Positions 1 through 18,468 of a stretch of DNA of 32,061 bases are shown in pieces. Source of the DNA: Syntrophobacteraceae bacterium. Its GTDB lineage: Bacteria; Desulfobacterota; Syntrophobacteria; Syntrophobacterales; Syntrophobacteraceae. Position 1 is the stretch's first letter, and every line of letters begins with the position of its first letter. Under the pieces are notes generated by a model that saw only the letters and a program-made list of their open reading frames with translations, did not search any database and was not told the origin of the DNA. Position numbers and translations under genes: made by a program. The DNA lies in NCBI GenBank assembly GCA_031292215.1, contig JARLHO010000099.1, positions 1-32,061 on the forward strand, read 5' to 3'.

Positions 1-3000
1 ACATTCGGCAATGCTTTTGTAGTCATCGGGAGCGCTCGGTTCATCCCCGCGTGTGCGGGGAACATCCTATCGCTACCCCGTAAAGCGTCCTCATGGGCGG
101 TTCATCCCCGCGTGTGCGGGGAACATCTTATCTCGTCGGCCAGGGCCGCAACCTGGAACGGTTCATCCCCGCGTGTGCGGGGAACATCGCATCCATTGCG
201 CCCAGAGATCCCGCACAGCCGGTTCATCCCCGCGTGTGCGGGGAACATCCCGTCCCTGTATTTTTGTGCCGCCAGTCGCCCGGTTCATCCCCGCGTGTGC
301 GGGGAACATTTGCATGCTCAGGGCATTGCTTGGAGCATCCTCGGTTCATCCCCGCGTGTGCGGGGAACATGAGCCGGTGAGCAGCCTCCAGGCGATGCGT
401 GCCGGTTCATCCCCGCGTGTGCGGGGAACATGGGGCCACAGATCGGAGGCTCTGCAATGGCAACGGTTCATCCCCGCGTGTGCGGGGAACATCGTTGCCG
501 TGTCACGGGGATCTCTGGAGAAATCGGTTCATCCCCGCGTGTGCGGGGAACATTGCCGATCTCAACAAGACCCAGGACGGAGCTTCGGTTCATCCCCGCG
601 TGTGCGGGGAACATACTTTTTTTAGACTTTTTTTTAGACCAGACCCCGGTTCATCCCCGCGTGTGCGGGGAACATCCTCGCTTTCAACGTGGGCTATCCC
701 GAGTTGTCGGTTCATCCCCGCGTGTGCGGGGAACATGGCGGTTTTGCCGCTGGTGTCGAACCAGGCGTCAGGTTCATCCCCGCGTGTGCGGGGAACATGG
801 CAGAGGAAGTCTTTGACCCGCCCGATTCGGCGGTTCATCCCCGCGTGTGCGGGGAACATGCCACAAATGCGAATCGGCCATGAGGCCCACGCCGGTTCAT
901 CCCCGCGTGTGCGGGGAACATTTTCGATATTTTTAATTTCATACCTCCCCCCCCGGTTCATCCCCGCGTGTGCGGGGAACATTACCTTGCGGACAATTTC
1001 AAAACGGCGAATTTCGGTTCATCCCCGCGTGTGCGGGGAACATATTAAATACTAAAGGCCGCTGAAAGCAGCGGCCGGTTCATCCCCGCGTGTGCGGGGA
1101 ACATGGATATTCTTCGATTAACAATATCCTCGTAAACGGTTCATCCCCGCGTGTGCGGGGAACATCAAACCTTTGGATAACGGCAGGTGCTACTCAGCGG
1201 TTCATCCCCGCGTGTGCGGGGAACATTTGATACAGTAGGTGGAGGTGAGCCGAGTATCCGGTTCATCCCCGCGTGTGCGGGGAACATGATTTCCCCACTC
1301 GCCTTGTAATGCGCTATTGCGGTTCATCCCCGCGTGTGCGGGGAACATTTAGACTTTTAGACTACTAATAATATCAATAACGGTTCATCCCCGCGTGTGC
1401 GGGGAACATCGCCGAGACACAAGCTCAATGGCCGTCCGGCTCGGTTCATCCCCGCGTGTGCGGGGAACATTTCCGGCGTGCAACAGCACTGGCCTTTCCT
1501 GCCGGTTCATCCCCGCGTGTGCGGGGAACATTCAATGCGTCCCTGCGGGGTATTGGCGTGCGCCGGTTCATCCCCGCGTGTGCGGGGAACATCAGCCACA
1601 TACCCCACGTCGGACGAGCTGGGCCGGTTCATCCCCGCGTGTGCGGGGAACATTTTTACTGCGTTTAGATAAGTCATGCCATCTCCGGTTCATCCCCGCG
1701 TGTGCGGGGAACATCCAAGCAAACTGGCCGCTTCGGTAGTTGTGATCGGTTCATCCCCGCGTGTGCGGGGAACATAATTTCTCCATTTGCTCTTATGATA
1801 GGCGCACCGGTTCATCCCCGCGTGTGCGGGGAACATATTGGTTTTCCATCGGAGGCTACGCCTGAATCCGGTTCATCCCCGCGTGTGCGGGGAACATTAC
1901 TGTCAGACTGTCGGTATCCCCGTACAACACGGTTCATCCCCGCGTGTGCGGGGAACATGTTTCCTGATTTGTACATACGAGGGCGAACTGCGGTTCATCC
2001 CCGCGTGTGCGGGGAACATACCTGTAGACATAGCGACGAACGTGTGTAGTCCGGTTCATCCCCGCGTGTGCGGGGAACATTCAAGTTGCAAATGATAGCG
2101 CGGCCGAAACAGCGGTTCATCCCCGCGTGTGCGGGGAACATTCCTGCAAAACTAAAAACACCTCAGCAGCTTTCGGTTCATCCCCGCGTGTGCGGGGAAC
2201 ATAATTAAGCTGAACGATCCTCCTGATAGAGTACCGGTTCATCCCCGCGTGTGCGGGGAACATCAAATCCTGAACAGGGAAAAGAAGGCATTGGACGGTT
2301 CATCCCCGCGTGTGCGGGGAACATCAATGCAGTGAAAACTTTGTCGGTCTGTTTTGCGGTTCATCCCCGCGTGTGCGGGGAACATTGGCAATGTTTGATT
2401 TTTCTAAAATTCCCGACTGGTTCATCCCCGCGTGTGCGGGGAACATGGTCCGATTAATAGGAAACGTAGCCTATCTAACGGTTCATCCCCGCGTGTGCGG
2501 GGAACATTCGATGCCTTTCTGGACAAGGGAGACTGGCCGCTGGTTCATCCCCGCGTGTGCGGGGAACATTGGCACAGAAGGGGAAACCTGATCTTTGGGA
2601 GCGGTTCATCCCCGCGTGTGCGGGGAACATCGGCGTTGGCTATGATGCAGCCAAAGATATAGCGGTTCATCCCCGCGTGTGCGGGGAACATCGGGTGTGA
2701 AGAACGCCATTTTTTCTCTATCACGGTTCATCCCCGCGTGTGCGGGGAACATCTATAACAATGCCGTATTCGGTATTACGTCTCCGGTTCATCCCCGCGT
2801 GTGCGGGGAACATATTGTGGAGCTGCGACTCTAATGGCAGTCACTCGGTTCATCCCCGCGTGTGCGGGGAACATGCCGCCTGGATAATCGTGGGGGCATC
2901 GGCTGACGGTTCATCCCCGCGTGTGCGGGGAACATGCTATGCTATAGAAAGCGAGAAGTAAATGGGACGGTTCATCCCCGCGTGTGCGGGGAACATTCCA

Positions 3001-3728
3001 GCACTAGCAGTTGCCATTTTTACTGTTCCGGTTCATCCCCGCGTGTGCGGGGAACATGGTGGCTTCTTTTATTTCATCCATTCCTAATTCGGTTCATCCC
3101 CGCGTGTGCGGGGAACATACAATCTAGTGAGTACTCGCAAGCGTTACAGGCGGTTCATCCCCGCGTGTGCGGGGAACATGCTTTAGGGATACCTTTTACT
3201 TTTCCTATTAACGGTTCATCCCCGCGTGTGCGGGGAACATTAGAAGCGGCTCCCAGACTGGAACTGTTTTAACGGTTCATCCCCGCGTGTGCGGGGAACA
3301 TAGGCTCCGTTAGCTGCTCTTGGATTAGGTACACGGTTCATCCCCGCGTGTGCGGGGAACATCTGGGTAGGCTCCCTCAAATTCATTTTCACTGCGGTTC
3401 ATCCCCGCGTGTGCGGGGAACATGATTATACCAGAATAGCATTTCGGCGCAACTGCGGTTCATCCCCGCGTGTGCGGGGAACATCAATTGTTCCCGCTCT
3501 ACCTAATTTGGTTGGGCGGTTCATCCCCGCGTGTGCGGGGAACATGATTACGGCCGCGGTCTCAGTCTGATCCGCGCCGGTTCATCCCCGCGTGTGCGGG
3601 GAACATAGCCCGAACAGCTCGTGGTGCACGAGTCCCATCGGTTCATCCCCGCGTGTGCGGGGAACATCCCTGGCGTCGACTCCCGCAAGCATCCGTGGCC
3701 GGTTCATCCCCGCGTGTGCGGGGAACAT
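1..3728 (-). CRISPR. Type I-E CRISPR array, 61 full repeats, truncated at left edge
   Basis: The 29-bp repeat (plus strand begins CGGTTCATCCCC and ends GCGGGGAACAT) occurs 61 times, first at 37-65 and last at 3700-3728, at a 61-bp period. The repeat is essentially invariant apart from its first base, and carries the inner palindrome CCCCGC-GTGT-GCGGGG. Bases 1-4 (ACAT) are the tail of a further repeat, so 61 spacers are visible and the array continues out of the window. Spacers are 32 nt except three of 33 nt (737-769, 860-892, 2508-2540). Read on the minus strand the repeat ends in GATGAACCG, the usual I-E orientation, so transcription runs leftward from the leader beside cas2. New spacers should therefore be at the right end. 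No degenerate terminal repeat is seen, in keeping with the distal end lying outside the window. Confidence 0.99.
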
Positions 3729-4048
3729 ACTTCCTGCACCTTATTGAAAACACTTTTAAATTCTCATCTCGAAAAATCCACCGAGCAAGCAGGGGCGTTT
3801 TAACGGGCGGAAGAGACCACATAATTGTGCGGGATCGACCTTTACCATTAGATGATATCCTCGGCTCTTATTTGAAACTTTGATCTGCTTCCAGTTTCCA
3901 GTAATGTAACCCCATGTCTGTCACGGCCAGGGAAAGCTTTTGTAAAAGCTGTCTCTAAAGAGTGGGTTTTAGGAGTCATCAATATACTCGTTCCTCATGG
4001 CCGAGATATCGAGCAGTCCGGTCTGCTTGAGCCTCTCTATAGCGATTT
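3729..4048 (-). promoter_or_regulatory. CRISPR leader region between cas2 and the array
   Basis: This 320-bp gene-free stretch lies between the cas2 stop and the first (leader-proximal) repeat, in the place and orientation of a type I-E leader. The part next to the array is AT-rich. A weak promoter-like pair can be drawn on the minus strand (TTGCTC, 17 nt, GAGAAT, ending about 40 nt before the repeat), but it is not convincing. A short perfect inverted repeat, AGCTTTT-GT-AAAAGCT, sits at 3935-3950. I could not identify a clear IHF consensus. The leader role is inferred from position; the exact leader length is unknown. Confidence 0.7.
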
Positions 4049-5249
<1,201 letters not shown>

Positions 5250-5342
5250 GAACGGTACTCCATCAAAATGAAAAAACTAATGTCCAGCGTGTTGGCAAGG
5301 CGGGTTTGGGAGATTCTCAAAGACGCGAGCAAAGAGAGCCCA

Positions 5343-6014
5343 TTACACCCGTCTGATAAGCATAAGGCCGCAGCCGAAGCCTTTGACTGGGCCAATGCCC
5401 GAAAAGAGACACTCCTTGATGAATTTATCCGGTTGGTCAACAATCAGGACACCGGTAAAATCCAGCGTGCTGAAAGTGATGGGCTTGTTGCCTTTGCCCT
5501 TGAACAGCTTGTGTTGCTGGTACCCATCGACGCGCACATTGCCGCTTGGAACATGAAATCCAAACCTTTCACAGCGTTCCATCAGCCAGCGCTCACCTTG
5601 GTTCTGAATGATCTCGCTTTCGTCAATTCGCTCCCCTTGGGTTTTGAGGACGGTTTTCGCCTCCATGATCACATCATGCCGGTGCTGACGGCCAAGCTCA
5701 TCACGTTTAGAGCGTATCGGATTGACACGCAGGGTGAATGCAAGACGTTGCCCGACAAAAAGCTTAGGCGCATACGGTTTACTGAAAATCTCCCACAAGC
5801 CGGTAGCGTCCCGGGGGCTGCGTTCCGAGACAGTATAGAATGTCGGCCATCCATTCACCGTCTCATGCCGATAGAGGAAGTCTCGCGTACGAACTGGGCT
5901 GTCGGTAAAGAGATTCCAGACCTGACGGTGCGACTGGTATCCTCCCCCTTTGCTCAGCAGGGCCACGTCGCGTGGTGAAACATTTTTGCCAAGCCGAATC
6001 ATGGTGAAGAACAT
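5343..6014 (-). CDS. cas6e: crRNA endoribonuclease Cas6e (CasE/Cse3)
   Basis: Cas6e cleaves the repeat hairpin in pre-crRNA and stays bound to the 3' handle as a Cascade subunit. The product is 223 residues. Near the N terminus YQSHRQVWNLF supplies Y26 and H29, fitting the catalytic Tyr/His of the family, and the C-terminal glycine-rich loop GIGPVKGFGCGLM is typical. The ATG at 6014 is chosen over an upstream start in the same frame because the minus strand carries AGGAGG a few bases before it and because family members begin MFFTMIRL-like. Only 2 nt separate it from the cas5e stop. Confidence 0.96.
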   Translation of the reverse strand: MFFTMIRLGKNVSPRDVALLSKGGGYQSHRQVWNLFTDSPVRTRDFLYRHETVNGWPTFYTVSERSPRDATGLWEIFSKPYAPKLFVGQRLAFTLRVNPIRSKRDELGRQHRHDVIMEAKTVLKTQGERIDESEIIQNQGERWLMERCERFGFHVPSGNVRVDGYQQHKLFKGKGNKPITFSTLDFTGVLIVDQPDKFIKECLFSGIGPVKGFGCGLMLIRRV

Positions 6015-6016
6015 TC

Positions 6017-6733
6017 CTAGTCCTCCTTTGGCACGGAGCAATAATGCTCGCGACGCTCGGCGAATTGCCAGCGGGTTCGATTTAGCGGCACATCCCGGCG
6101 CGTCATGATTTTTTCGTGGGTAAAGCCGCTGTCCTGCTCGGTTTCCCAGTAGAGCAATGTGTAAGATCGGTTGGACATACCGGTCAGTTCGCCGTCATGA
6201 AAGCTCACACTCGTCAGTGCCTCGTTTAGAGTCCCTTTTATTACTACCTGGGGCTGAAGGGGCAATGCAAGAGGGCAGGACTTGCGCCCGAGGTAAAGAG
6301 TGAATGCCGGTTTCGCCAAGGCTCCAGCCAACTGCCGCGCCGTATAGGTCGCACCAGCTCGGACTTCAACCGCCACGGTGTAGGCAGCATCGCAGCGGTA
6401 GTCGCGGCGGGAAAGAATCGTATTGAGGTCATCGACCGCGAGTTCCGAGCGCCGCGTGTAATGGGTCTTACCCCGTTTGGCTGAAGGGACCTGAATTGTG
6501 TGATAGTCGCGCAACAGCGTCCCCATGGCGTCAACGCGAACGGCGAAAGTACATGCTTCCGTCAGTGTCTTCTGGCGCTCGGCTTCATCCCTTCGTATGC
6601 CTAAAGCTGCTGCCAGCAGACCGATAATGGCTGATTTGCTTGGATGTGCAAAGCTTGGGCGGTATTCGCCCACGGCTATGTCACCCCAAGCCGCCAGGGG
6701 ACCGTAGAGGCGAAAAATGAGATATTCGCGCAT
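6017..6733 (-). CDS. cas5e: Cascade subunit Cas5e (CasD)
   Basis: Cas5e caps the 5' handle of the crRNA in Cascade. The 238-residue protein starts YLIFRLYGPLAAWG and continues PSFAHPSKSAIIGLLAAALGI, the conserved N-terminal ferredoxin-like (RAMP) fold signature of Cas5e. Its position between cas7e and cas6e is canonical, with gaps of 4 nt upstream and 2 nt downstream, implying tight co-translation. Length is close to the family norm (about 225-250). Nothing odd is seen. Confidence 0.96.
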   Translation of the reverse strand: MREYLIFRLYGPLAAWGDIAVGEYRPSFAHPSKSAIIGLLAAALGIRRDEAERQKTLTEACTFAVRVDAMGTLLRDYHTIQVPSAKRGKTHYTRRSELAVDDLNTILSRRDYRCDAAYTVAVEVRAGATYTARQLAGALAKPAFTLYLGRKSCPLALPLQPQVVIKGTLNEALTSVSFHDGELTGMSNRSYTLLYWETEQDSGFTHEKIMTRRDVPLNRTRWQFAERREHYCSVPKED

Positions 6734-6737
6734 GCGC

Positions 6738-7793
6738 TCACCCCTTCACAAAAGTAATTATGTCGTTCAAACTCCCTTCGCCGGTTTCGGCGTTCATTAC
6801 CTTCTTGTCCTTGGCACATGGTCCGTAGACTTTTTCCATGTTCGACCGTTTGGACTCAAGATCGATGATAGCTTTTGACAGAATATCTTCGCCACGCACA
6901 GGCTTGAGGAAGGCAACCGACAACGAGCGGGGTTGCTGCTCGCCCTTTTCCGCCATTAGGTACGATGCATAGGCACGGGAACCAAAGCTGTTTTGCTTGC
7001 CATTGGGTGCAACCTTGGCTGCTGCCTCGACCAGAGCGGCAAGGGCTTGGTTCGCCAGTGTCTGATCTCCTCCCAGGTTTTTGACCAGCAGGTCCCGATT
7101 TATGCAGAGATAGAGATAAAAAAGTCCAGCGGCAAATTCCGTCTCGCCGATATGGGCCGCTCCGAGATCGTCTACGCCTTGGTTCAGGTCATCTACCGCA
7201 GTGAAATAATCGTCTTCAACAGCAACCTCATGGACGGTGATCGCATGCGCCACCTGTACGGCTGCCTCGGTGTTGAAGGCGGGAGCACTCGCCAGCATTC
7301 TTCCGAACATCGCTATGTCGGCAGCCGAGTGTTGTCGCATGAGCAGTGCGAGGTCGGCGGAAGTTGGAGCCGTGCTGTTCGACGACAGTTTCTCTACCAG
7401 TTTCTCGATGCCGGCCCTTTCCTCGGGACTGAAATGGGCTAGTTGCTCGATCTCGAGTTCTTCGAGAGTTTTTGCAGAGTTCTCTTTCTTACACTTGCCA
7501 AAAACTTCGGCGATCTGCTTGGCCCAAGCTTTGGCCGGAGCCTCGGCCACACCCTTTTTAAGGAATGCATTATATGTTTCGACTCCCATGGCCTTGGTGC
7601 GGGTCCCCACATGCCCCTTCATGGCCACTGCAAACAAATCGGAAGTCCTCCAGGCCCGTTTGAGGCTCTGTGACGATATCCTTAGACGATTTTTCCCGCC
7701 CATGACAGCGGTCTTGGGGCGTCCCAAATCGTCGCGGTTGAGGTTTGAGGGCGGATAAGAGGTCAGCAGGTGCAGTTGAATAAAAGTACTCAT
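6738..7793 (-). CDS. cas7e: Cascade backbone subunit Cas7e (CasC/Cse4)
   Basis: Cas7e polymerises as the six-subunit backbone that holds the crRNA spacer. The 351-residue product begins FIQLHLLTSYPPSNLNRDD and has GGKNRLRISSQSLKRAWR, both strongly conserved in this family; near the C terminus is PRSLSVAFLKPV. The ATG at 7793 is preceded by AAGGAG at suitable spacing. A 112-nt gap separates it from cse2, the largest inside the operon. No gene is visible in that gap, so it may hold an internal control site or a separate ribosome-loading region. Confidence 0.97.
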   Translation of the reverse strand: MSTFIQLHLLTSYPPSNLNRDDLGRPKTAVMGGKNRLRISSQSLKRAWRTSDLFAVAMKGHVGTRTKAMGVETYNAFLKKGVAEAPAKAWAKQIAEVFGKCKKENSAKTLEELEIEQLAHFSPEERAGIEKLVEKLSSNSTAPTSADLALLMRQHSAADIAMFGRMLASAPAFNTEAAVQVAHAITVHEVAVEDDYFTAVDDLNQGVDDLGAAHIGETEFAAGLFYLYLCINRDLLVKNLGGDQTLANQALAALVEAAAKVAPNGKQNSFGSRAYASYLMAEKGEQQPRSLSVAFLKPVRGEDILSKAIIDLESKRSNMEKVYGPCAKDKKVMNAETGEGSLNDIITFVKG

Positions 7794-7905
7794 AGTGTGG
7801 ATCTCCTTGGTGGTATGTGTATTGACATGAGGATAAAAAACCTCGATGCTTTTGCGGCTGTGGACATTGTGCTCGACAAGCAGCCCTTATGAAAACCCTA
7901 TGATG

Positions 7906-8406
7906 TCACGCCTCACCCGGTGCCTTTGAATAGTAATCAAACGCCCATTTCTTGCGTGTTCCTTCATTCCAGAAATAAACTCCCTGGGCTAGACTCTGAA
8001 GGTTGACCGTTCCGCCCAGCAAAGCGATGATCCTGGTCATGCTGGTGAAAAGATCCTCCTGCCTCTTCACCTTCAGTATCCGGCGAAAGCGCAAGCCGCT
8101 GACCCTTGCCGAAAGGTCGGCCTTTCCAGATGCCATCTGTTCGGCAATGGAGCTTCCCTCACTGTCTGCCTTGACGCGGGCTGCAAGACCGGCAATCAGC
8201 GCCAACCCTTCACAATCAACCGAACCGTAACGGGAGACCGCCATGCGCAGGCGATGATACGCCGGAGAGAACGCAACTTGTGTAAGGGTAGCCGAACGCC
8301 GCAGCACCGCCCGTTCGCCGCGATTTTTGTCCATCTCCCGCCACCAGGAGAGCAGTGCTTGATTCTCGGGTGAATCCTTATCAAACCGGAGATACTTTGA
8401 ATCCAT
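7906..8406 (-). CDS. cse2: Cascade small subunit Cse2 (Cas11e/CasB)
   Basis: Cse2 forms the dimer along the Cascade belly that stabilises the R-loop. The product is 166 residues, near the usual 160-180, alpha-helical, with the conserved N-terminal LLSWWREMDKNRGERAVLRRS and basic segment LRFRRILKVKRQEDLF towards the C terminus. The ATG at 8406 is chosen because AGGAGG precedes it by about 5 nt on the minus strand; an in-frame GTG 15 nt upstream would overlap that ribosome site. It lies 43 nt after cas8e. Confidence 0.94.
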   Translation of the reverse strand: MDSKYLRFDKDSPENQALLSWWREMDKNRGERAVLRRSATLTQVAFSPAYHRLRMAVSRYGSVDCEGLALIAGLAARVKADSEGSSIAEQMASGKADLSARVSGLRFRRILKVKRQEDLFTSMTRIIALLGGTVNLQSLAQGVYFWNEGTRKKWAFDYYSKAPGEA

Positions 8407-8449
8407 GAAACCTCCTTTCACAGTCTGAGTTTCAAACGATCAATCCTGT

Positions 8450-10075
8450 CTATTTCCGTACTTTTGAGGCCCTCTTGCTCACCGCCGAAGCCTTCGGTTG
8501 TCCTTCGACCGTTAGTTCGAGCAGGTCTTTAATTTTTTTGCCCCTGTTGAATCTTCCCAGATCTTTTCGGGCGATAACGACCCTTTTGGGGTCGGCATCT
8601 TCAATTGGGCCTTCCCATGCATAAGCGTCAAAACGCACCAGAGCTTCCTTGCACAGGGAATCAAGCCAAGCTGCGCGACACGCCATGGTATCGCCACCTG
8701 ACCCCAAATCCTCCTTCAAGGCTTGCAACGTTTCGTAGAAGTCCGGTTCCGTGTTTTGCCAGAAGCTGGTAGTTAGAAACGAAGTGTCTCCCTTGACTTC
8801 GCTGGGACGTCTAAACCAGGCTTTCTTTACGGCCGTTCTGATATTTCCTGCTATTTCCACCGCAGTCTTAATCATGGCTGCCACGCAATGTTCATGGTGC
8901 TCCCTTTGCGATGCTTCAATTTGCAGAAGTGGCATTTTCGCCTCGTACCAACAGCGGGCTTTCATATTGTCCATGTCGTAGCCGAATGCCCACAACCGGA
9001 ATTGCCAGTCGCTCTGCTGGCGTATCTCGCGAAACTCGTGGACAACACGAGCCGGTGTACGCTTATCGCTACTATCTTCCTGCACAAAGCCAAGCCAATG
9101 CCGATAGAATAAGCCGCCTTCTTGAGCGTGTGCTGGCAACGGGAGGCCATCCTTATTGCGACCATAAGGCGAAAGCGGATGAAGCCAGGCGCCTGTGAAA
9201 TTCATTCCGTAGTTCTTCTCCCGATACATATCAATGAGCCGGTCGGACCGCTTATCGCATATACCGCACCGGCCGGCTTTCAGGGTACCAAGTGTTAATC
9301 TGATCCGGCGCGGCATTCCCCAATACACCATGGCCGGGTGGGTATCCTCAGGTGTAGTGTCTATTCCTGCCTTGCTGTCGCTTGCTCTGGTTCCGGCAAG
9401 CCATGGGAAAATACACGCTTCAGCCGCGAGTGAGGCATTACCACAACTAGCCAGGAAGCCGGCATTCTCCAGCACGTTCAGCCAGACTGTGTGCCACAGA
9501 GTATTATGGCGCTCATCTCCGACAACCAAGGTTGACAGCGGTCCGCCACCCCGTAGCGACGTTCTGTAGCCAACACCGCCCGAAGGCGCATTTGTTTGCA
9601 TGGTAAACAGGGCAGTAGCGCAGCAGGCCGGGCACATGCAGACCACTGAATCCCGCTTTACAAAATGATCCTTATTCTGTTCGCAGGTATGTTCGCCGGG
9701 CATATCAATAAGAAGTCGAGCTATGCTCTTTTCCGGTGTATCAATTCTGTCAAAATCCTGCATGAATCTCGGTCCGTCTCCAGCAAGTTCAAAAGCATTC
9801 CGTACAGCAGCGCACTTTATTTGCAGTTCCTCCGGTTCCAACGGCTTTTTCAGCTTTATCTTCCAATCCACCCCATTGGCCGGCGGCGCCGCCGTCTGGA
9901 CCAAGCCAATCAGGAACTGGATCAGCGCACCGTTGAAGTCGGGACGCGATGCATTCAGCAAGACAACCGGATTCTCGACAAAGCGGTCCGTCACTTCCCA
10001 CGGGGCAATCATCTCTTCGGTCCCATCATGTCTCTTTACCGGAATCCATTTCTCATCAATCAGATTAAAGCGCAT
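8450..10075 (-). CDS. cas8e: Cascade large subunit Cas8e (CasA/Cse1)
   Basis: Cas8e recognises the PAM and recruits Cas3. The 541-residue protein starts MRFNLIDEKWIPV, the family start, and contains GGVGYRTSLRGGGPLSTLV at about 166-184, the most conserved part of Cse1. A cysteine cluster (C131, then CMCPACC at 146-152) suggests a bound metal, as in several Cse1 proteins. The ATG at 10075 is preferred over the longer frame starting near 10297 because that extension lies inside cas3, and because AGGAGGG stands just upstream. Only one base separates it from the cas3 stop, so translation is probably coupled. Confidence 0.95.
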   Translation of the reverse strand: MRFNLIDEKWIPVKRHDGTEEMIAPWEVTDRFVENPVVLLNASRPDFNGALIQFLIGLVQTAAPPANGVDWKIKLKKPLEPEELQIKCAAVRNAFELAGDGPRFMQDFDRIDTPEKSIARLLIDMPGEHTCEQNKDHFVKRDSVVCMCPACCATALFTMQTNAPSGGVGYRTSLRGGGPLSTLVVGDERHNTLWHTVWLNVLENAGFLASCGNASLAAEACIFPWLAGTRASDSKAGIDTTPEDTHPAMVYWGMPRRIRLTLGTLKAGRCGICDKRSDRLIDMYREKNYGMNFTGAWLHPLSPYGRNKDGLPLPAHAQEGGLFYRHWLGFVQEDSSDKRTPARVVHEFREIRQQSDWQFRLWAFGYDMDNMKARCWYEAKMPLLQIEASQREHHEHCVAAMIKTAVEIAGNIRTAVKKAWFRRPSEVKGDTSFLTTSFWQNTEPDFYETLQALKEDLGSGGDTMACRAAWLDSLCKEALVRFDAYAWEGPIEDADPKRVVIARKDLGRFNRGKKIKDLLELTVEGQPKASAVSKRASKVRK

Positions 10076-10076
10076 G

Positions 10077-12845
10077 TTATCCCTCCTTTTTTGTAACACT
10101 GACGCCGAGAGTCGGATTATACGAGATCTCGACGATTCCGCCATTCCTGTCAGTGGCGCTACCTCGCCAGATCCCGTCGGCTTGAGGAGAAAGCGCAACG
10201 AGGATGCTCCACTTTCCTTTATCCGGCAGATGGATTTTAAGTCGTTCCAATTCACCCCGAAGTACAGGATCGGCATGATCGGTTTCAGCATGAACAATGG
10301 CGCTGCGCAAGCTTAACTGGCTCATATCCCACGGGAACAATCCGCCCTTTGAATACCACGGAGTCAATTTACCTCCGTCCCAGCGAGCAAGGCGAACCGT
10401 GCTCTCAATTTCGCCAAGGCGCGTGGGAGTGCACATATCCTCCAACCACTGGTTTGGCGTGGCTTCGTATCCTTGTTCGAGTTTCAGCATATTTATGTTG
10501 GCGAGGGATCGTTCTGCCTGCTGCTTTGCTTCGGCATCGAGGTCCAGTCTTCTGAGCTTTTCGGGAATGCGCCCGTCTGCATCGTCGCAGAAGACGGTCT
10601 CAACCAATTCCCGAGCATCATCGGGCATTCGCAATACACGCGCTTCGCACAAGAGCCGCGATGTGAGCCACAAACAGCCGTGGCTTGGATAAACGAAAGC
10701 GGCTTTGGGAAATGCCGACTTGAACCAATCTGCCTGGACGTTGTCTTCCGGTAATGGACCATGAATTATGAAAACTGGTGCTTCGCGTCGGTCGGCGCCG
10801 GCGTAAACCGGCAACAGGTTTCCCCGCTCGTCGCGTAAATGACGGTGAAGCCTGCCGGCCCGCTGAATCAGTAAGTCCATCGGCGCCAAATCAGAGATCA
10901 ACAGATCGAAATCCAGGTCAAGTGACTGTTCTACGACTTGGGTTGCTATCAGGACTTTCCCGCGTCGTTGATTTTCTCCGCTTTGCTTGCCAAAAGAGGT
11001 ACAGACTGCGGTTTCGATGTCAAGCCGGTCACCCATTGCAAAGCGGGCATGAAAGAGCATGACACGTTCCGCTCCAATTATTGCTCGAATGTTTTCAAAG
11101 CCTGTCATTGCATCGTGCACGGTATTCCGTATCCAGCAAACGCACTTTCCCTGCTTCGCAGCCGAAATAATCAACCGCTCGACTTCCTCCCGCTCGGGGA
11201 CATTCCGTACGGCTACGCTTATCCTGCGTTTCGTGGTAGCTGCAACCGGTGTTTCAACACAACCCTCATCCCTGGAAAAATGTGTCGCCAGTGGATATGC
11301 ACGCGAAACGACCGGCGCAAAAGTCTCCATTCCAAGACCACGGGCAAAACTTTTCACCAGATCCTGACGCACCTGCACAGGTAAGGTGGCGGAAAGCAGG
11401 ATTGCGCTTCCTCCCAAAGCGGCATGAAAAGAGAGCAGCGTCTGGAGAAGCTTGTTCATATAGGCGTCGTAGGCATGTACCTCATCGACAATAAGGATAT
11501 GCCCGACTAGCCCGAAGAGACGAAGCGACTGAAAGCGTGACGGCAGTATAGCCAAGAGCGCCTGGTCCAGGGTGCCGACACCAACATCTGCCAGGAGCGC
11601 TTTCTTTCGGTTATCCGCCAGCCATGAGGAACACTGGGCAACAGCCGTGTCTTCATCGGTACCGTATGAGAGTTGGCCGTCCTGGTCCTGAGAGATCGAG
11701 CGCAGAAAGGATTCCGAGAGATGCCTTGCTCCGTGCGCCAAAACGATGGAGGGTGAAGAATCGTCCGTGAAAAGCGTCTTGTATGTTGCGGCTACCCGTT
11801 CATACATTGCATTTGAAGTCGCCATCGTCGGCAAGGCGATGAAAAGACCGTTTCCCTGTCTCTTTAACATGAGGCTTTGCGCGAGAAGAAGTGCTGCCTC
11901 TGTCTTGCCCGAACCCGTGACATCTTCGAGGATGAAAAGTTGGGGCGAAAGCGCTACTGGACATTCGATGACATGTCGCTGTAAGGGTGTCGGCTCTTTG
12001 ATGAAAGGGAACATATCCGAAAATGGACTGGCGCTTGGTCGCGGGCTGGCAGGGCCGATTCCCGCTTCCCGGACGGCTCGGTCCGCCCGAGGAACCGCCA
12101 AGCTCTGCCAGTATTCGGTAAGAGGCATCGGAGTTTCAGAAAAGGGGAACCAACCGCTGTTTGACCCTATCCAGTCGCATAGCACCGCAAATCCAGATAT
12201 GAGCCATGAAGTTTTCCGGATTGAATCGTAAATTTGAATGGGTGAAGATAGTTCACCGACAGGACCCAAGTTATCGGTCAAAAATTCACCAAAATCATGA
12301 AGGAATTCTATTGCGGCAGTTGACGCATCGCGACCGAAGTAGGCCGAGAACCTGAGCCCCAAGCCATTTGGCCCTGTCAACCGAGGCGGTGAACCGTGAT
12401 GGCCCGTGCACGCCTTGGCAATCACCTCGAAGATTTCCTGCCAATAATCTGAATAATGATCAAAATCTAGAAAACTTGCGGATGTGTTTTCTTTAAATGC
12501 ATCCCACAGTACCTTAGACCATAAGAGGTTTCCAAGGCTGTCATGGCGCACGGAATAAGGCTTGTTGAAACATCTGCCCTGAAGCCTTTCGAGCAGATCC
12601 GGTCTCAGGTTTTGGAAGGTCTCGGAGAATTTGCCGATATCGTGAAGCGCAAGAAATAGAATTAGGAGATGGCGGCAGGTCGTCGCGCCTAATCCTGTGG
12701 ATTCCGTGAATCTATGCAATATCTCAGGGCGCCCTGTCAGCAACGTATTGCCCACCGCCGCTATATCCAGGCAATGATAAGGGAGCATGTGGAAGCTTAG
12801 CCCGTTCTTCTCCGCTTTTCCCCAGTACCGAAAGTAGCTTACCAT
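10077..12845 (-). CDS. cas3: CRISPR-associated helicase-nuclease Cas3, type I-E
   Basis: Cas3 is recruited by Cascade and unwinds and degrades target DNA. The 922-residue protein has an N-terminal HD nuclease domain (H24, H68-D69, H149-H150, D224 in CDWIGSN) followed by a superfamily 2 helicase: Walker A TGSGKT at 310-315, DEVH at 454-457, SAT at 485-487 and motif VI QRAGRLHR at 661-668. The order HD then helicase, and the length, fit type I-E. The ATG at 12845 is chosen because GGAGG lies 5 nt upstream; a GTG two codons earlier overlaps that site. It is the first gene of the cas operon, so the promoter should lie in 12846-13147. All catalytic motifs appear intact. Confidence 0.97.
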   Translation of the reverse strand: MVSYFRYWGKAEKNGLSFHMLPYHCLDIAAVGNTLLTGRPEILHRFTESTGLGATTCRHLLILFLALHDIGKFSETFQNLRPDLLERLQGRCFNKPYSVRHDSLGNLLWSKVLWDAFKENTSASFLDFDHYSDYWQEIFEVIAKACTGHHGSPPRLTGPNGLGLRFSAYFGRDASTAAIEFLHDFGEFLTDNLGPVGELSSPIQIYDSIRKTSWLISGFAVLCDWIGSNSGWFPFSETPMPLTEYWQSLAVPRADRAVREAGIGPASPRPSASPFSDMFPFIKEPTPLQRHVIECPVALSPQLFILEDVTGSGKTEAALLLAQSLMLKRQGNGLFIALPTMATSNAMYERVAATYKTLFTDDSSPSIVLAHGARHLSESFLRSISQDQDGQLSYGTDEDTAVAQCSSWLADNRKKALLADVGVGTLDQALLAILPSRFQSLRLFGLVGHILIVDEVHAYDAYMNKLLQTLLSFHAALGGSAILLSATLPVQVRQDLVKSFARGLGMETFAPVVSRAYPLATHFSRDEGCVETPVAATTKRRISVAVRNVPEREEVERLIISAAKQGKCVCWIRNTVHDAMTGFENIRAIIGAERVMLFHARFAMGDRLDIETAVCTSFGKQSGENQRRGKVLIATQVVEQSLDLDFDLLISDLAPMDLLIQRAGRLHRHLRDERGNLLPVYAGADRREAPVFIIHGPLPEDNVQADWFKSAFPKAAFVYPSHGCLWLTSRLLCEARVLRMPDDARELVETVFCDDADGRIPEKLRRLDLDAEAKQQAERSLANINMLKLEQGYEATPNQWLEDMCTPTRLGEIESTVRLARWDGGKLTPWYSKGGLFPWDMSQLSLRSAIVHAETDHADPVLRGELERLKIHLPDKGKWSILVALSPQADGIWRGSATDRNGGIVEISYNPTLGVSVTKKEG

Positions 12846-13147
12846 TTCCACCTCCAGCTCAATCCATCAGATGTTACTCCATTAAAACGACAAAAGATTC
12901 TACATCATTACCGTTCGATTAAATATCAATAATAGGTCTGAAAGGCGCGCTTTTCATCGGCCATGAAATGGACTGGATACGGTAAATGACACTGCAAGGA
13001 CCCGTTCTCGCAGCAATGAGAATGGTGGATGCGCAAATGTAAGAATGTTTCAACATATTCGTAACAATCGCATGAGACAATCGCACGCGTAGCCGGCCCG
13101 CCGGCAAGTGCATTCCAACGCCATCAGATACAGGAAACCAGGATGAG
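12846..13147. promoter_or_regulatory. Divergent intergenic region between cas3 and the glycosyltransferase
   Basis: This 302-bp non-coding stretch separates two divergently transcribed units, so it should contain the cas-operon promoter (minus strand) and the promoter of the 13148 gene (plus strand). The 12880-12935 segment is AT-rich. On the minus strand TTGATA (12924-12929) and TAGAAT (12897-12902) are present but 21 nt apart, too far for a standard sigma-70 promoter. Near 13043-13060 there is an imperfect inverted repeat, GAATGTT..AACATATTC, and near 13093 a GC palindrome GCCGGC-CC-GCCGGC. I cannot assign either to a known regulator. Confidence 0.45.
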
Positions 13148-15431: not shown

Positions 15432-15566
15432 AAGTTCGGGTTCGGCGATGGGAGAGAACCTTCTTCGGTCAGGAACCGACGCAACATCTCCAATGACCTG
15501 ACAGAGCTGCCCGTGGTCGGGGCTGAAGCACCATGTATTGTCGCTCTCGAATTTAGATAGAGTCAT
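15414..15566 (-). CDS. Possible 50-aa protein coupled to the RNA ligase gene
   Basis: The open frame starts with an ATG that overlaps the RNA ligase stop as ATGA (15563-15566), the same kind of junction used between the upstream genes of this cassette. The 50-residue product starts MTLSKFESDNTWCFSPDHG and has two cysteines and no recognisable domain. It could be a real small cassette component, a remnant of a longer gene, or chance. The last 18 bp overlap the end of the plus-strand gene at 15204-15431. Only the overlap geometry supports it. Confidence 0.35.
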   Translation of the reverse strand: MTLSKFESDNTWCFSPDHGQLCQVIGDVASVPDRRRFSPIAEPELLSRSF

Positions 15567-16252
15567 GGGATGGTTTCCATCTTCAACCGATTGGCCTTGA
15601 TGGCGGAATGTGTCCAATGCCTTTCAACCGCTTGGATAAAGGCAGGACGGACCAACTTGGCTCTTTTAACCAGCCAGTCGCCTTGGTCGAACCGAAGATA
15701 AAGTCCCTCTGCCAGTTTGTCGCTGAGTTGAGACTGGGCCAGGAGTTTATTTAATCTCGAAAGCGTGAAGCGACCACTATGTAATCTTGGCGCTTGAGAG
15801 ATACCAAGGACCCGAAAAATCTCGTCTCGGCGAGTGCAGGAGAAAAAACGAGCGACGTTTTTATCATAGACATCGAAACCCAGAAACCAGTCCGGCAACC
15901 GGTCATAGACGACCGAGTGCTCTGCGTAGCACCATTCTCCGAAAAGAATGTAACGGTCGGTCAATTGTTGGAAAAGCTCATCAGTTCTTCGAGCCAGCCA
16001 GTCGGCAAGCTTTTTCCATTGCCCCGTACTCGGAAGATGAAGGTATGCCCCTCTATTTTGGGCGCGGATATTCCCATTGGCGTCAAAGGAAAGCCCTAGA
16101 TTCGCTCCGTCCACCTTTTCTTCAACGACAAGCTCATGTCGCAAGAATTCATTTCGGTCAAATTCCGACAGGACCTTATCCCCCCTGACTTGAACGTTAC
16201 CGAGGAGCGCTAGATGTGGGGTGGAGGGAAACTTGAAAAAAGCGTCTTTCAC
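15563..16252 (-). CDS. ATP-dependent RNA ligase (Rnl2-like nucleotidyltransferase)
   Basis: RNA ligases join RNA ends through a lysine-AMP intermediate. The 229-residue protein shows the nucleotidyltransferase motifs in order: motif I EKVDGAN with K46 as likely nucleophile, QNRGAY at 65-70, motif III LFGEWCY at 103-109, motif IIIa DWFLGFDVYD at 121-130, motif IV EGLYLR at 182-187 and motif V WLVKRAKLVR at 193-202. No separate C-terminal domain is obvious, so it is a minimal catalytic core. The start is a GTG at 16252 that overlaps the PIN gene stop by 4 bp (GTGA). Being last or next to last in a cassette with a putative ribonuclease suggests it reseals RNA; that role is inference. Motif set also occurs in some DNA ligases, but the spacing is RNA-ligase-like. 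Confidence 0.82.
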   Translation of the reverse strand: MKDAFFKFPSTPHLALLGNVQVRGDKVLSEFDRNEFLRHELVVEEKVDGANLGLSFDANGNIRAQNRGAYLHLPSTGQWKKLADWLARRTDELFQQLTDRYILFGEWCYAEHSVVYDRLPDWFLGFDVYDKNVARFFSCTRRDEIFRVLGISQAPRLHSGRFTLSRLNKLLAQSQLSDKLAEGLYLRFDQGDWLVKRAKLVRPAFIQAVERHWTHSAIKANRLKMETIP

Positions 16253-16779
16253 GCGCCCATCTTCTCCTCATACTTTGTCCGGGCATAGTCAGGACACAGG
16301 AAATGCACGGTAATCCCGACCTCCGCCAAGGCGCCACTCCATCCCCACCACTTGCTGTCTGTCGCCTGTAAGACCGGCGGTTTAGCCCGATGGGCGTTGG
16401 AGACGGCGATGAACTTCCGATCAGAGTCATCGAACCGGGACAAGCCACCATGCTCAGGGAATTCGTTGTATGACTCACCATTTTTTGTAATCGTAACGCG
16501 ATCCTGATCGGGAAAATTCCAGCGATTGTCATGAACCCACTTCATGAATTGATCTCCCATGCCGGGCTGACCGCTCATACAGAGTTGGTTACGATATTCA
16601 GTGAATATTTCATCCCCGGTATCCAATACCAAGCCGCCTTTTTTGATGATGGATGCTACAGCTTCAACACAAGCGTTGACACACTCGGTCAACTCCTCAG
16701 GTATTGTTGGAGCAAGGGCAAGATTTGCAGTTTTCGGCACATTGGTGTCGACAAGGTACTTTTTAGGCAGGCCGTTCAT
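16249..16779 (-). CDS. PIN-domain-like nuclease
   Basis: The 176-residue protein resembles PIN (VapC-fold) metal-dependent ribonucleases. It starts with the hydrophobic strand and first acid pair KKYLVDTNVP (D11, N13), has acids E57/E61 in DTGDEIFTEY, a cluster FDDSDRKFIAVS (D117, D118, D120) and a final TDSKW (D141), matching the spacing of the PIN active-site acids. It is longer than typical VapC toxins (about 130). It overlaps the ATPase stop by ATGA and the RNA ligase start by GTGA, so it is sandwiched between them and probably co-translated. RNA as the substrate is the family expectation; a DNA target is not excluded. Confidence 0.72.
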   Translation of the reverse strand: MNGLPKKYLVDTNVPKTANLALAPTIPEELTECVNACVEAVASIIKKGGLVLDTGDEIFTEYRNQLCMSGQPGMGDQFMKWVHDNRWNFPDQDRVTITKNGESYNEFPEHGGLSRFDDSDRKFIAVSNAHRAKPPVLQATDSKWWGWSGALAEVGITVHFLCPDYARTKYEEKMGA

Positions 16780-18182
16780 TCAGAAGCCTCCGCTGGGCTG
16801 CTGTTTTGGCGCATGCGCTTCTTCATAGCCGCTCTTGATTGTTCCGTGATGTCTCCCATCTCATCGCCGAAGAAGTTTTCCGGCCAATTGCGGATGTTTC
16901 CAAAGAGGTCAATTTGCAACGGTTCCAGAGTGGCAGGAGCCTTGGCTATGTTGGCGAAGAAAGCGGACACATTTTCTTTTGGCACGATATCTTCGGCAAT
17001 TCGCCGTTGTAGTCGCCGCAAAAAATGCTCGGAGTGGGTTTCTATGATCACCTGGATGTTCCTGTCAGCGCCGTTTTCTCTGGAGTTGACGACATCTATC
17101 ATCACATCGGCCAACGCCGATTGGGCATTCGGGTGCAGGTGAATCTCGGGCTGCTCCATTAGAATAATCGACCCTTGGGGTGCGTAGAAACACTGCACCA
17201 AAACTGGAAGTACCTGGGAAATACCAAAACCGACATCCGGGAGATCCACCCAGTCCTGCGATCCTCTGGTTCGGACCTTGACTTCATATTCCTGCCGTTG
17301 TTCGGAGATAGGATTGACCTTGAACTCTTCGATCAACCCCATTTCCTTAAGTTTCAGCGCAATAATCTCTTCGAAGGGCTTAGCTGCGCGCCTGTAGGCA
17401 AGACTAATTTTTCGGCTTCGAGCTGCCAGTATGGCAGCCACGGTATTTTCACCGGCATAGCCGACACTTTCAGGCTCGATACCTGTCCATGAGTATAACC
17501 GTTCGGTCTTGATGCGAAGTGGGCCAAGGTAATTAAGCAACCCGAAAAGTTTTTCATGACGCAGATTAAGCGCCTGAACGAAATCTGCGTTCTGATAGTA
17601 GGCAACCACCTCATCGGGAAAGCCGTAAAAACGAACAGGCGCACCGGGAGACCAAGCCCGGCCAGGTTTTCTTCTTAGTGAGTATTTCTCGGCTTCAACT
17701 TTGTATTCGGCTTTAGTTCCGGACTTCCGTTCCATTCCAATGGAGGCTCTTGGTTTGTCCTTGTAGACCAGTTGGTACTTCAGGTGATCCAGAACCAAGG
17801 AACGTTGCTCTTTTTCTCCCAAGCCAACGCCGGCTTCAAAAGACAGGGTGTCGCCAGAAAAAATCTTACCGGAAACCGGGTCTTTAAACCTTAACGTATC
17901 TCGAAAATCCCATTGGTATTCGAAGGAGATCTTATTAGAAGGGTTATGGTGAAAAACCATTTCCTGATAAGAGCCGAGTTGGACCGCCGAGTTTTTTCCA
18001 CCTGGATAGAAGACCGCTTTTCGGTCCGGGGATTCAACGGTCTGCTTCAACATCATCAAAAATTGTCCGATGCTGGATTTACCTGAACTGTTCGCACCAA
18101 AGAACAAGGTAATGGGGGCCATGCGGATGTTCCCGGTGTCTTCCCATATTTTAAAATTCTTTATCCGCAATTGTTGTAGCAT
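16776..18182 (-). CDS. AAA/ABC-type ATPase (DUF3696-like, OLD/SMC-related)
   Basis: The 468-residue protein has an ABC-type split ATPase layout: N-terminal IKNFKIWEDT and Walker A GANSSGKS at 29-36, a long insert of about 270 residues, signature-like DVGFGISQVLP at 316-326, Walker B ILMEQPEIHLHP at about 340-351 and an H-loop ETHSEHFLRR at 381-390. The C-terminal tail (NFFGDEMGDI) is like that of DUF3696 ATPases. There is no TOPRIM domain, so it is not a full OLD nuclease; the nuclease partner is probably the next gene. The ATG at 18182 has GGAGG upstream, lies 1 nt after the preceding stop, and the gene ends in an ATGA overlap. Such ATPases commonly act as sensors in defence systems; the specific role here is inference. 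Confidence 0.85.
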   Translation of the reverse strand: MLQQLRIKNFKIWEDTGNIRMAPITLFFGANSSGKSSIGQFLMMLKQTVESPDRKAVFYPGGKNSAVQLGSYQEMVFHHNPSNKISFEYQWDFRDTLRFKDPVSGKIFSGDTLSFEAGVGLGEKEQRSLVLDHLKYQLVYKDKPRASIGMERKSGTKAEYKVEAEKYSLRRKPGRAWSPGAPVRFYGFPDEVVAYYQNADFVQALNLRHEKLFGLLNYLGPLRIKTERLYSWTGIEPESVGYAGENTVAAILAARSRKISLAYRRAAKPFEEIIALKLKEMGLIEEFKVNPISEQRQEYEVKVRTRGSQDWVDLPDVGFGISQVLPVLVQCFYAPQGSIILMEQPEIHLHPNAQSALADVMIDVVNSRENGADRNIQVIIETHSEHFLRRLQRRIAEDIVPKENVSAFFANIAKAPATLEPLQIDLFGNIRNWPENFFGDEMGDITEQSRAAMKKRMRQNSSPAEASE

Positions 18183-18183
18183 C

Positions 18184-18468
18184 TCATTCGCCTCCCATTC
18201 GTGTTACAGCCTTATCGTACCACATGAGCAGCTTCGGGTCTTCCTGGATGATTGCTTGCGGGATTTTGCCAGCGACCTTAATACTGGTAGAGTAGTCGCG
18301 CTCTTGCCAACCTTTCTTTGACAGATCTGCGATAGTCAAGACGTCGCCCGTTTTTACGTCCATCAAATTATCTCTCAGGTATGGAGTCAAGGTTGCCCAG
18401 GATAGCCCCGCATCGATCTGTAATTTACAGTTACTATCAATTACTGGCAAGCGTTTTACAGATCCCAT
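18184..18468 (-). CDS. Unknown 94-aa protein, first gene of the ATPase-PIN-ligase cassette
   Basis: I do not recognise this protein. It has 94 residues, no membrane segment, and a central stretch YLRDNLMDVKTGDVLTIADL followed by a basic KKGWQERDYS. The ATG at 18468 lacks a clear ribosome site upstream, so a different start is possible. Its stop is one base from the ATPase start, which argues that it belongs to the same operon. Small leading genes in such cassettes can be regulators, antitoxins or adaptor proteins, but nothing in the sequence decides this. Confidence 0.6.
   Translation of the reverse strand: MGSVKRLPVIDSNCKLQIDAGLSWATLTPYLRDNLMDVKTGDVLTIADLSKKGWQERDYSTSIKVAGKIPQAIIQEDPKLLMWYDKAVTRMGGE

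Follow-up and report, generated by a model that had tools for sequence, protein, structure and literature searches.

The type I-E CRISPR array at the start of contig JARLHO010000099.1, from a Syntrophobacteraceae bacterium, contains four junctions between repeat and spacer that depart from the pattern followed in the rest of the array. The question raised by this locus is whether these four junctions record spacers that were cut one base too far into the PAM and, if they do, how much of the PAM the array can disclose. We use "window" below for the whole stretch of DNA that was analysed, which is 32,061 nt in length.

The array, its cas genes and the irregular junctions

The segment from position 1 to 12851, the features of which are collected in Table 1, is an ordinary type I-E CRISPR-Cas locus. 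On the minus strand, the repeat has a 28-nt core, ATGTTCCCCGCACACGCGGGGATGAACC, followed by a final G; the core is identical in 61 of 61 repeats, and the assignment to type I-E follows from a 28/29-nt I-E repeat, a period of 61 nt and an adjoining cas1e-cas2e pair. The type I-E cas set is complete, as all 8 of the proteins tested match the NCBIfam models expected of them. Seven of the 8 scored above the cut-off of an I-E-specific model, and Cas3 fell under the cut-off of the E. coli-type Cas3 model (487.4 vs 569 bits). We note that the domain match in cas8e spans residues 78-588 of 615; the open reading frame, as listed, begins upstream of this domain and shares sequence with the cas3 frame. 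The nearest relatives of the Cas1e protein among 80 loci carry mostly Desulfuromonadales, Geobacter or Geotalea labels, the best of them at 90% identity; also, a 26-nt core of the repeat is identical in Geotalea toluenoxydans (locus L030).

Table 1. Features of the window that are referred to in the text; spacers are numbered from the leader
Feature	Position	Strand	Remarks
Type I-E CRISPR array	1..3728	(-)	61 complete repeats, leader side at 3729
Spacer 49	737..770	(-)	T then G, 34 nt
Spacer 47	860..893	(-)	G then G, 34 nt
Spacer 22	2386..2418	(-)	A then G, 33 nt
Spacer 20	2508..2541	(-)	A then G, 34 nt
Presumed leader, between cas2e and first repeat	3729..4048	(-)	inferred from position only
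cas2e	4049..4381	(-)	TIGR01873
cas1e	4326..5249	(-)	TIGR03638, 388.6 bits, cut-off 215.6
cas6e	5343..6041	(-)	TIGR01907
cas5e	6017..6733	(-)	TIGR01868
cas7e	6738..7793	(-)	TIGR01869
cse2	7906..8421	(-)	TIGR02548
cas8e/cse1	8450..10297	(-)	TIGR02547
cas3	10077..12851	(-)	TIGR01587 core and TIGR01596 HD models, above cut-off

The end of the array that lies away from the leader coincides with the contig edge: the window starts at base 1 of its source contig, one of 177 in an assembly of 4.9 Mb, and the ATGT found there corresponds to the first 4 bases of a 62nd repeat. A 90-nt repeat-spacer-repeat query against the organism's own genome gave 60 matches, all of them within the array at 1..3728, although a diverged second array may escape a search of this type. 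Further along the window, at 15563-18468 on the minus strand, are an AAA ATPase with a DUF3696 domain (PADLOC HEC-03B, E 1.3e-132) and its partner (HEC-03A, E 1.5e-27), which adjoin a protein with an RNA_ligase domain (PF09414) and a 94-aa open reading frame whose residues 51-93 match the final portion of PglX-type methylase models. Judged from these matches, the 15563-18468 module is likely a second defence module near the I-E locus.

With the repeat counted as 28 nt, 57 of the 61 junctions are regular, in that the core is followed by G and 33 nt precede the next repeat, for a period of 61 nt; the 61st junction was classed by means of ATGT, the start of the 62nd repeat that is clipped by the contig edge. 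Direct reading of the array bore out what the first-pass annotation had described for the other four junctions. Their positions, 770, 893, 2418 and 2541, were exact; on the plus strand a C precedes each of them; GAACC is followed by TG, GG, AG and AG, respectively; and three of them carry one extra base, with 34 nt at 770, 893 and 2541, or 33-nt spacers when 29 nt are assigned to the repeat. The four are not equivalent, since the last G of the repeat is truly absent only at 770, 2418 and 2541 and is present at 893, which is merely one base long. The appearance expected of a slipped spacer, namely a last base that is not the PAM G with a G next to it, was accordingly seen at 770, 2418 and 2541 and was not seen at 893. 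The chance that all three of the G-less junctions would have G next is p ~0.04 (using the window's own first-base frequency, 19/57), which by itself is weak evidence.

Junction statistics in pooled type I-E arrays

We pooled junctions from arrays adjoining cas1e in other genomes, at 129 loci that comprised 9 from relatives, 80 from a species-genome collection and 40 further stretches (38 from a cas1e search of 395 genomes of the phylum and two from relatives). The cas1e search gave 49 places over the cut-off, of which 38 were taken; the rest were the window itself, a locus (L014) that was already partly included, and nine that were omitted. Scripted array finding in the 129 loci yielded 123 arrays with 4018 unique junctions after removal of 187 duplicate spacers, and filtering kept 3832 of these in 107 arrays. 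The window was excluded from this set, and none of its 61 spacers was present in it. The 186 junctions filtered out came from arrays in which the last base was not mostly G, the repeats were degenerate or the repeat 3' end was altered, and they include three junctions of L030 that combine a 60-nt period with a last base other than G; with these three removed, none of the 26 short cases has an aberrant base. At least one aberrant last base occurred in 48 of the 107 pooled arrays. Among these bases T was the most frequent, followed by A and then C, and T was mostly without G next.

By comparison with the pooled set, the window array was unexceptional. Aberrant last bases numbered 3/61 in the window vs 115/3832 in the pool (p 0.43) and long spacers 3/61 vs 75/3832 (p 0.12), and we rejected an unusual error rate since neither count is significantly above the pooled one. 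Clustering of the irregular spacers (20 with 22, and 47 with 49) was likewise rejected: a permutation test on 75 arrays of an earlier pooled set plus the window, in which the arrays counted were the 10 to 27 having at least 2 irregular spacers, was not significant at any distance or for any class (p 0.11-0.61).

In regular junctions (last base G, period 61 nt), the first spacer base was G in 1032/3612 cases (28.6%), which we took as background. Where the last repeat base was A, G came next in 19 of 31 junctions (p 1.5e-4 in the set of 3832). This excess persisted with array-matched expectation (9.0 expected vs 19 seen, p about 1e-4), drew on 15 arrays, and was confined to the one position, as the base that follows showed no G excess (8/31). 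Enrichment of G was thus found for the A class, which bears on 2418 and 2541; it was not found for the T class, which bears on 770 (21/59, p 0.13-0.15, not significant), or for C (7/25, not significantly above background). Aberrant last bases were also commoner in long spacers, with 8/75 at periods of 62-63 nt vs 107/3719 at 61 nt (Fisher p 0.0017), and in 6 of the 8 that were both aberrant and long a G came next (p 0.009). Cases with a 62-nt period kept the normal G in 63 of 70 instances, and in these G came next at the background level (19/63). A rough estimate from the excess over background puts the slipped fraction at 0.75 for AG junctions, 0.87 for aberrant junctions of long spacers with G next and 0.28 for TG junctions irrespective of length; background by itself would account for about a quarter of the AG class.

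A nearer subset of 2262 junctions, picked roughly by locus number and not strictly of one phylum, ran in the same direction as the full pool with less power: A was followed by G in 9/15 (p 0.016), T in 13/30 (p 0.086) and aberrant long junctions in 4/6 (p 0.07). Long spacers with the normal G had G next in 12/28 of this subset, against a background of 30.1% (p 0.11), which leaves some room for GG slips. Finally, in 394 genomes of another order, searched by pattern independently of the pool, 12 irregular junctions were found, and A was followed by G in 2 of 3.

Readings of the four junctions

We consider it likely that 2541, 2418 and probably 770 resulted from a slip on the PAM side, that 893 is simply long and uninformative about the PAM, and that the locus is in other respects an ordinary type I-E locus. 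In type I-E the last repeat base is supplied by the incoming fragment, normally as the G of the AAG PAM. Trimming of the PAM-side end one base too far out would then carry in two PAM bases, AG at 2541, AG at 2418 and probably TG at 770; the far end would be unmoved at 2541 and 770, to give 34 nt, and would have moved too at 2418, to give 33 nt. By the junction statistics, two or three of the 61 entries in this array were probably stored one base off.

The best case is 2541, which has AG and is long, and is probably a one-base slip into an AAG PAM. The junction at 2418, with AG and 33 nt, is probably a slip at NAG in which the far end also shifted, the alternative being capture at a non-AAG PAM. 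For 770, with TG and a long spacer, a slip at an NTG PAM is the probable reading and an NNT PAM plus a long spacer its rival; we favour the slip mainly on account of the extra base in the spacer, as the T class in general is not significantly enriched. The first-pass annotation had explained all four junctions as one-base slips into the PAM. That explanation stands for 2541 and 2418 on the strength of the A-then-G count and moderately for 770 on the strength of its length, and it finds no support at 893, where G next is at background. The accompanying claim that the array itself reports ANG-type PAMs was an overreach. A one-base slip exposes only the last two bases of the PAM, so the leading A has to come from the literature, in which Vink 2021 (PMC8482600) gives AAG as the PAM of a type I-E repeat cluster of Geobacter, a cluster that may not include the window's repeat. 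With that addition, we infer that the three fragments lay at NAG/NTG sites with A as the leading PAM base.

We regard it as unlikely that the G-less junctions arose by capture in the normal register at NNA or NNT PAMs, the following G being a chance first base of the spacer. Events of this kind are documented in E. coli K12: in Swarts 2012 (PMC3338789), the base at the end of the repeat agreed in every case, deviating ones included, with the third base of the PAM, and the aberrant last bases were attributed to normal-register capture at AAT, CGA and AAA PAMs (CCT with AAT, CCA with AAA and CCA with CGA). The window's array resembles that system in having a last repeat base that differs according to the PAM captured, and departs from it in that the aberrant E. 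coli bases were assigned to non-AAG PAMs in the normal register. The pooled set also contains many junctions suited to normal-register capture: T is more frequent, with 59 junctions, than A with 31 or C with 25, and in 38 of those with T no G comes next, so that most T junctions are not slips. However, capture in the normal register predicts neither the G that follows A in 19/31 junctions nor the link with long spacers. Furthermore, where a G comes after an AAA PAM, the sequence contains AAG one base off, and at this point the normal-register and slip readings partly merge.

A point mutation that altered the repeat's final base once the spacer had been acquired, or an error of assembly (the genome is in 177 contigs), could account for any single junction, but we think it very improbable as a general explanation: it fails to predict either G next or long spacers and, with 61 cores identical over 28 bases, mutations would need to strike the 29th base only. 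The slip on the PAM side remains our preferred reading for 2541, 2418 and, with less assurance, 770.

The situation at 893 is different, and here a long spacer produced by a one-base error at the non-PAM end is the reading we prefer and hold to be fairly likely. The pooled 62-nt cases, most of which kept the normal G with G next no more often than background, agree with it, as does a passage of Staals 2016 (PMC5059440) according to which most wrong-length spacers of type I-F map to canonical PAMs. Against it, a slip at NGG would give an identical appearance, and the 12/28 seen in the nearer subset would be compatible with a minority of GG slips. The most suitable reading of 893 is therefore that of a long spacer without PAM information, and its GG is no evidence of slippage.

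Off-register storage has precedents in other systems. Slipped spacers of E. coli type I-E were reportedly found experimentally (Shmakov and coworkers, 2014; known to us through papers that cite that work). Those spacers are like the ones proposed here in being stored off-register from an AAG PAM, and unlike them in being experimental, whereas the window's were read from a natural array without donors. Slipped E. coli spacers are cited in passages of both Musharova 2019 (PMC6568314) and Richter 2014 (PMC4117759). One-base offsets also figure in Staals 2016 (PMC5059440) and Richter 2014 (PMC4117759) in connection with slipping in type I-F; in the latter, of 7 long protospacers (33 nt) that lacked GG at the normal place, 6 had it at an offset of one base, and these long protospacers resemble the window's 34-nt cases.

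Donor searches and the use of junction statistics

We searched for donors of the four irregular spacers in several collections. The whole array, compared with 50,697 GenBank phage records, matched 14 places in 8 records and gave no protospacer of the four spacers among the 8 best places, one per record, all of which overlap repeat sequence; the 6 further places lie in two of the records. This search of the whole array was the one that covered the other 57 spacers. Exact pieces of 16-21 nt from the four spacers, sought in viral contigs, returned 0, 0, 1, 5 and 25 stretches and no protospacer, and the best extended matches (26/34 and 25/34) were put down to chance or to a motif in common. For three of the four, back-translated patterns gave 0 matches in viral contigs; spacers 2541 and 770, sought in 55 genomes of the class with as many as 3 mismatches allowed, matched the array itself only; and the four spacers singly gave no match to plasmids at E 0.1. 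Four of the 12 irregular junctions from the other order were also compared with phages, with no match, and so did not provide a positive control with a known donor.

Several spacers have features of their own. One frame of spacer 49 (737-770) reads DAWFDTSGKTA, and five viral contigs share 17 exact bases with this spacer, which would be the WFDTSG-coding part if the frame is right; the match falls off in the flanks, and the shared stretch is perhaps a conserved coding motif. In spacer 44 (1044-1076), inspection by eye shows a perfect inverted repeat of 8 bp, GGCCGCTG...CAGCGGCC, with a T-rich stretch after it, an arrangement that looks like an intrinsic terminator of the donor. TTTAGAC occurs twice each in spacers 51 (621-639) and 39 (1348-1362), one copy in spacer 39 taking its first T from the repeat end, and it occurs 2 times in the window from 4001 to 32061, both strands counted. 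Possibly, spacers 51 and 39 derive from related donors.

PAM slippage in type I-E is an already established phenomenon, from E. coli, and the error rate of the window's array is ordinary. By itself the present finding therefore matters little, and what it offers is a modest idea for a method, based on the A-then-G excess in natural arrays. The excess of T without a following G suggests a second class of error, such as capture at AAT PAMs. Tentatively, and with more doubt than confidence, we put forward repeat position 29 together with spacer position 1 as a donor-free record of errors, in which A then G would represent AAG slips and the T excess AAT-like captures. In the literature searched we found no earlier use of natural-array junction statistics in this way, which does not in itself prove novelty. 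If the idea is true, thousands of arrays could be compared for their error rates and for the middle base of the PAM with no need to find a phage. As a method, junction statistics in natural arrays can supply the middle PAM base and a trimming-error rate for uncultured hosts whose phages are unsampled.
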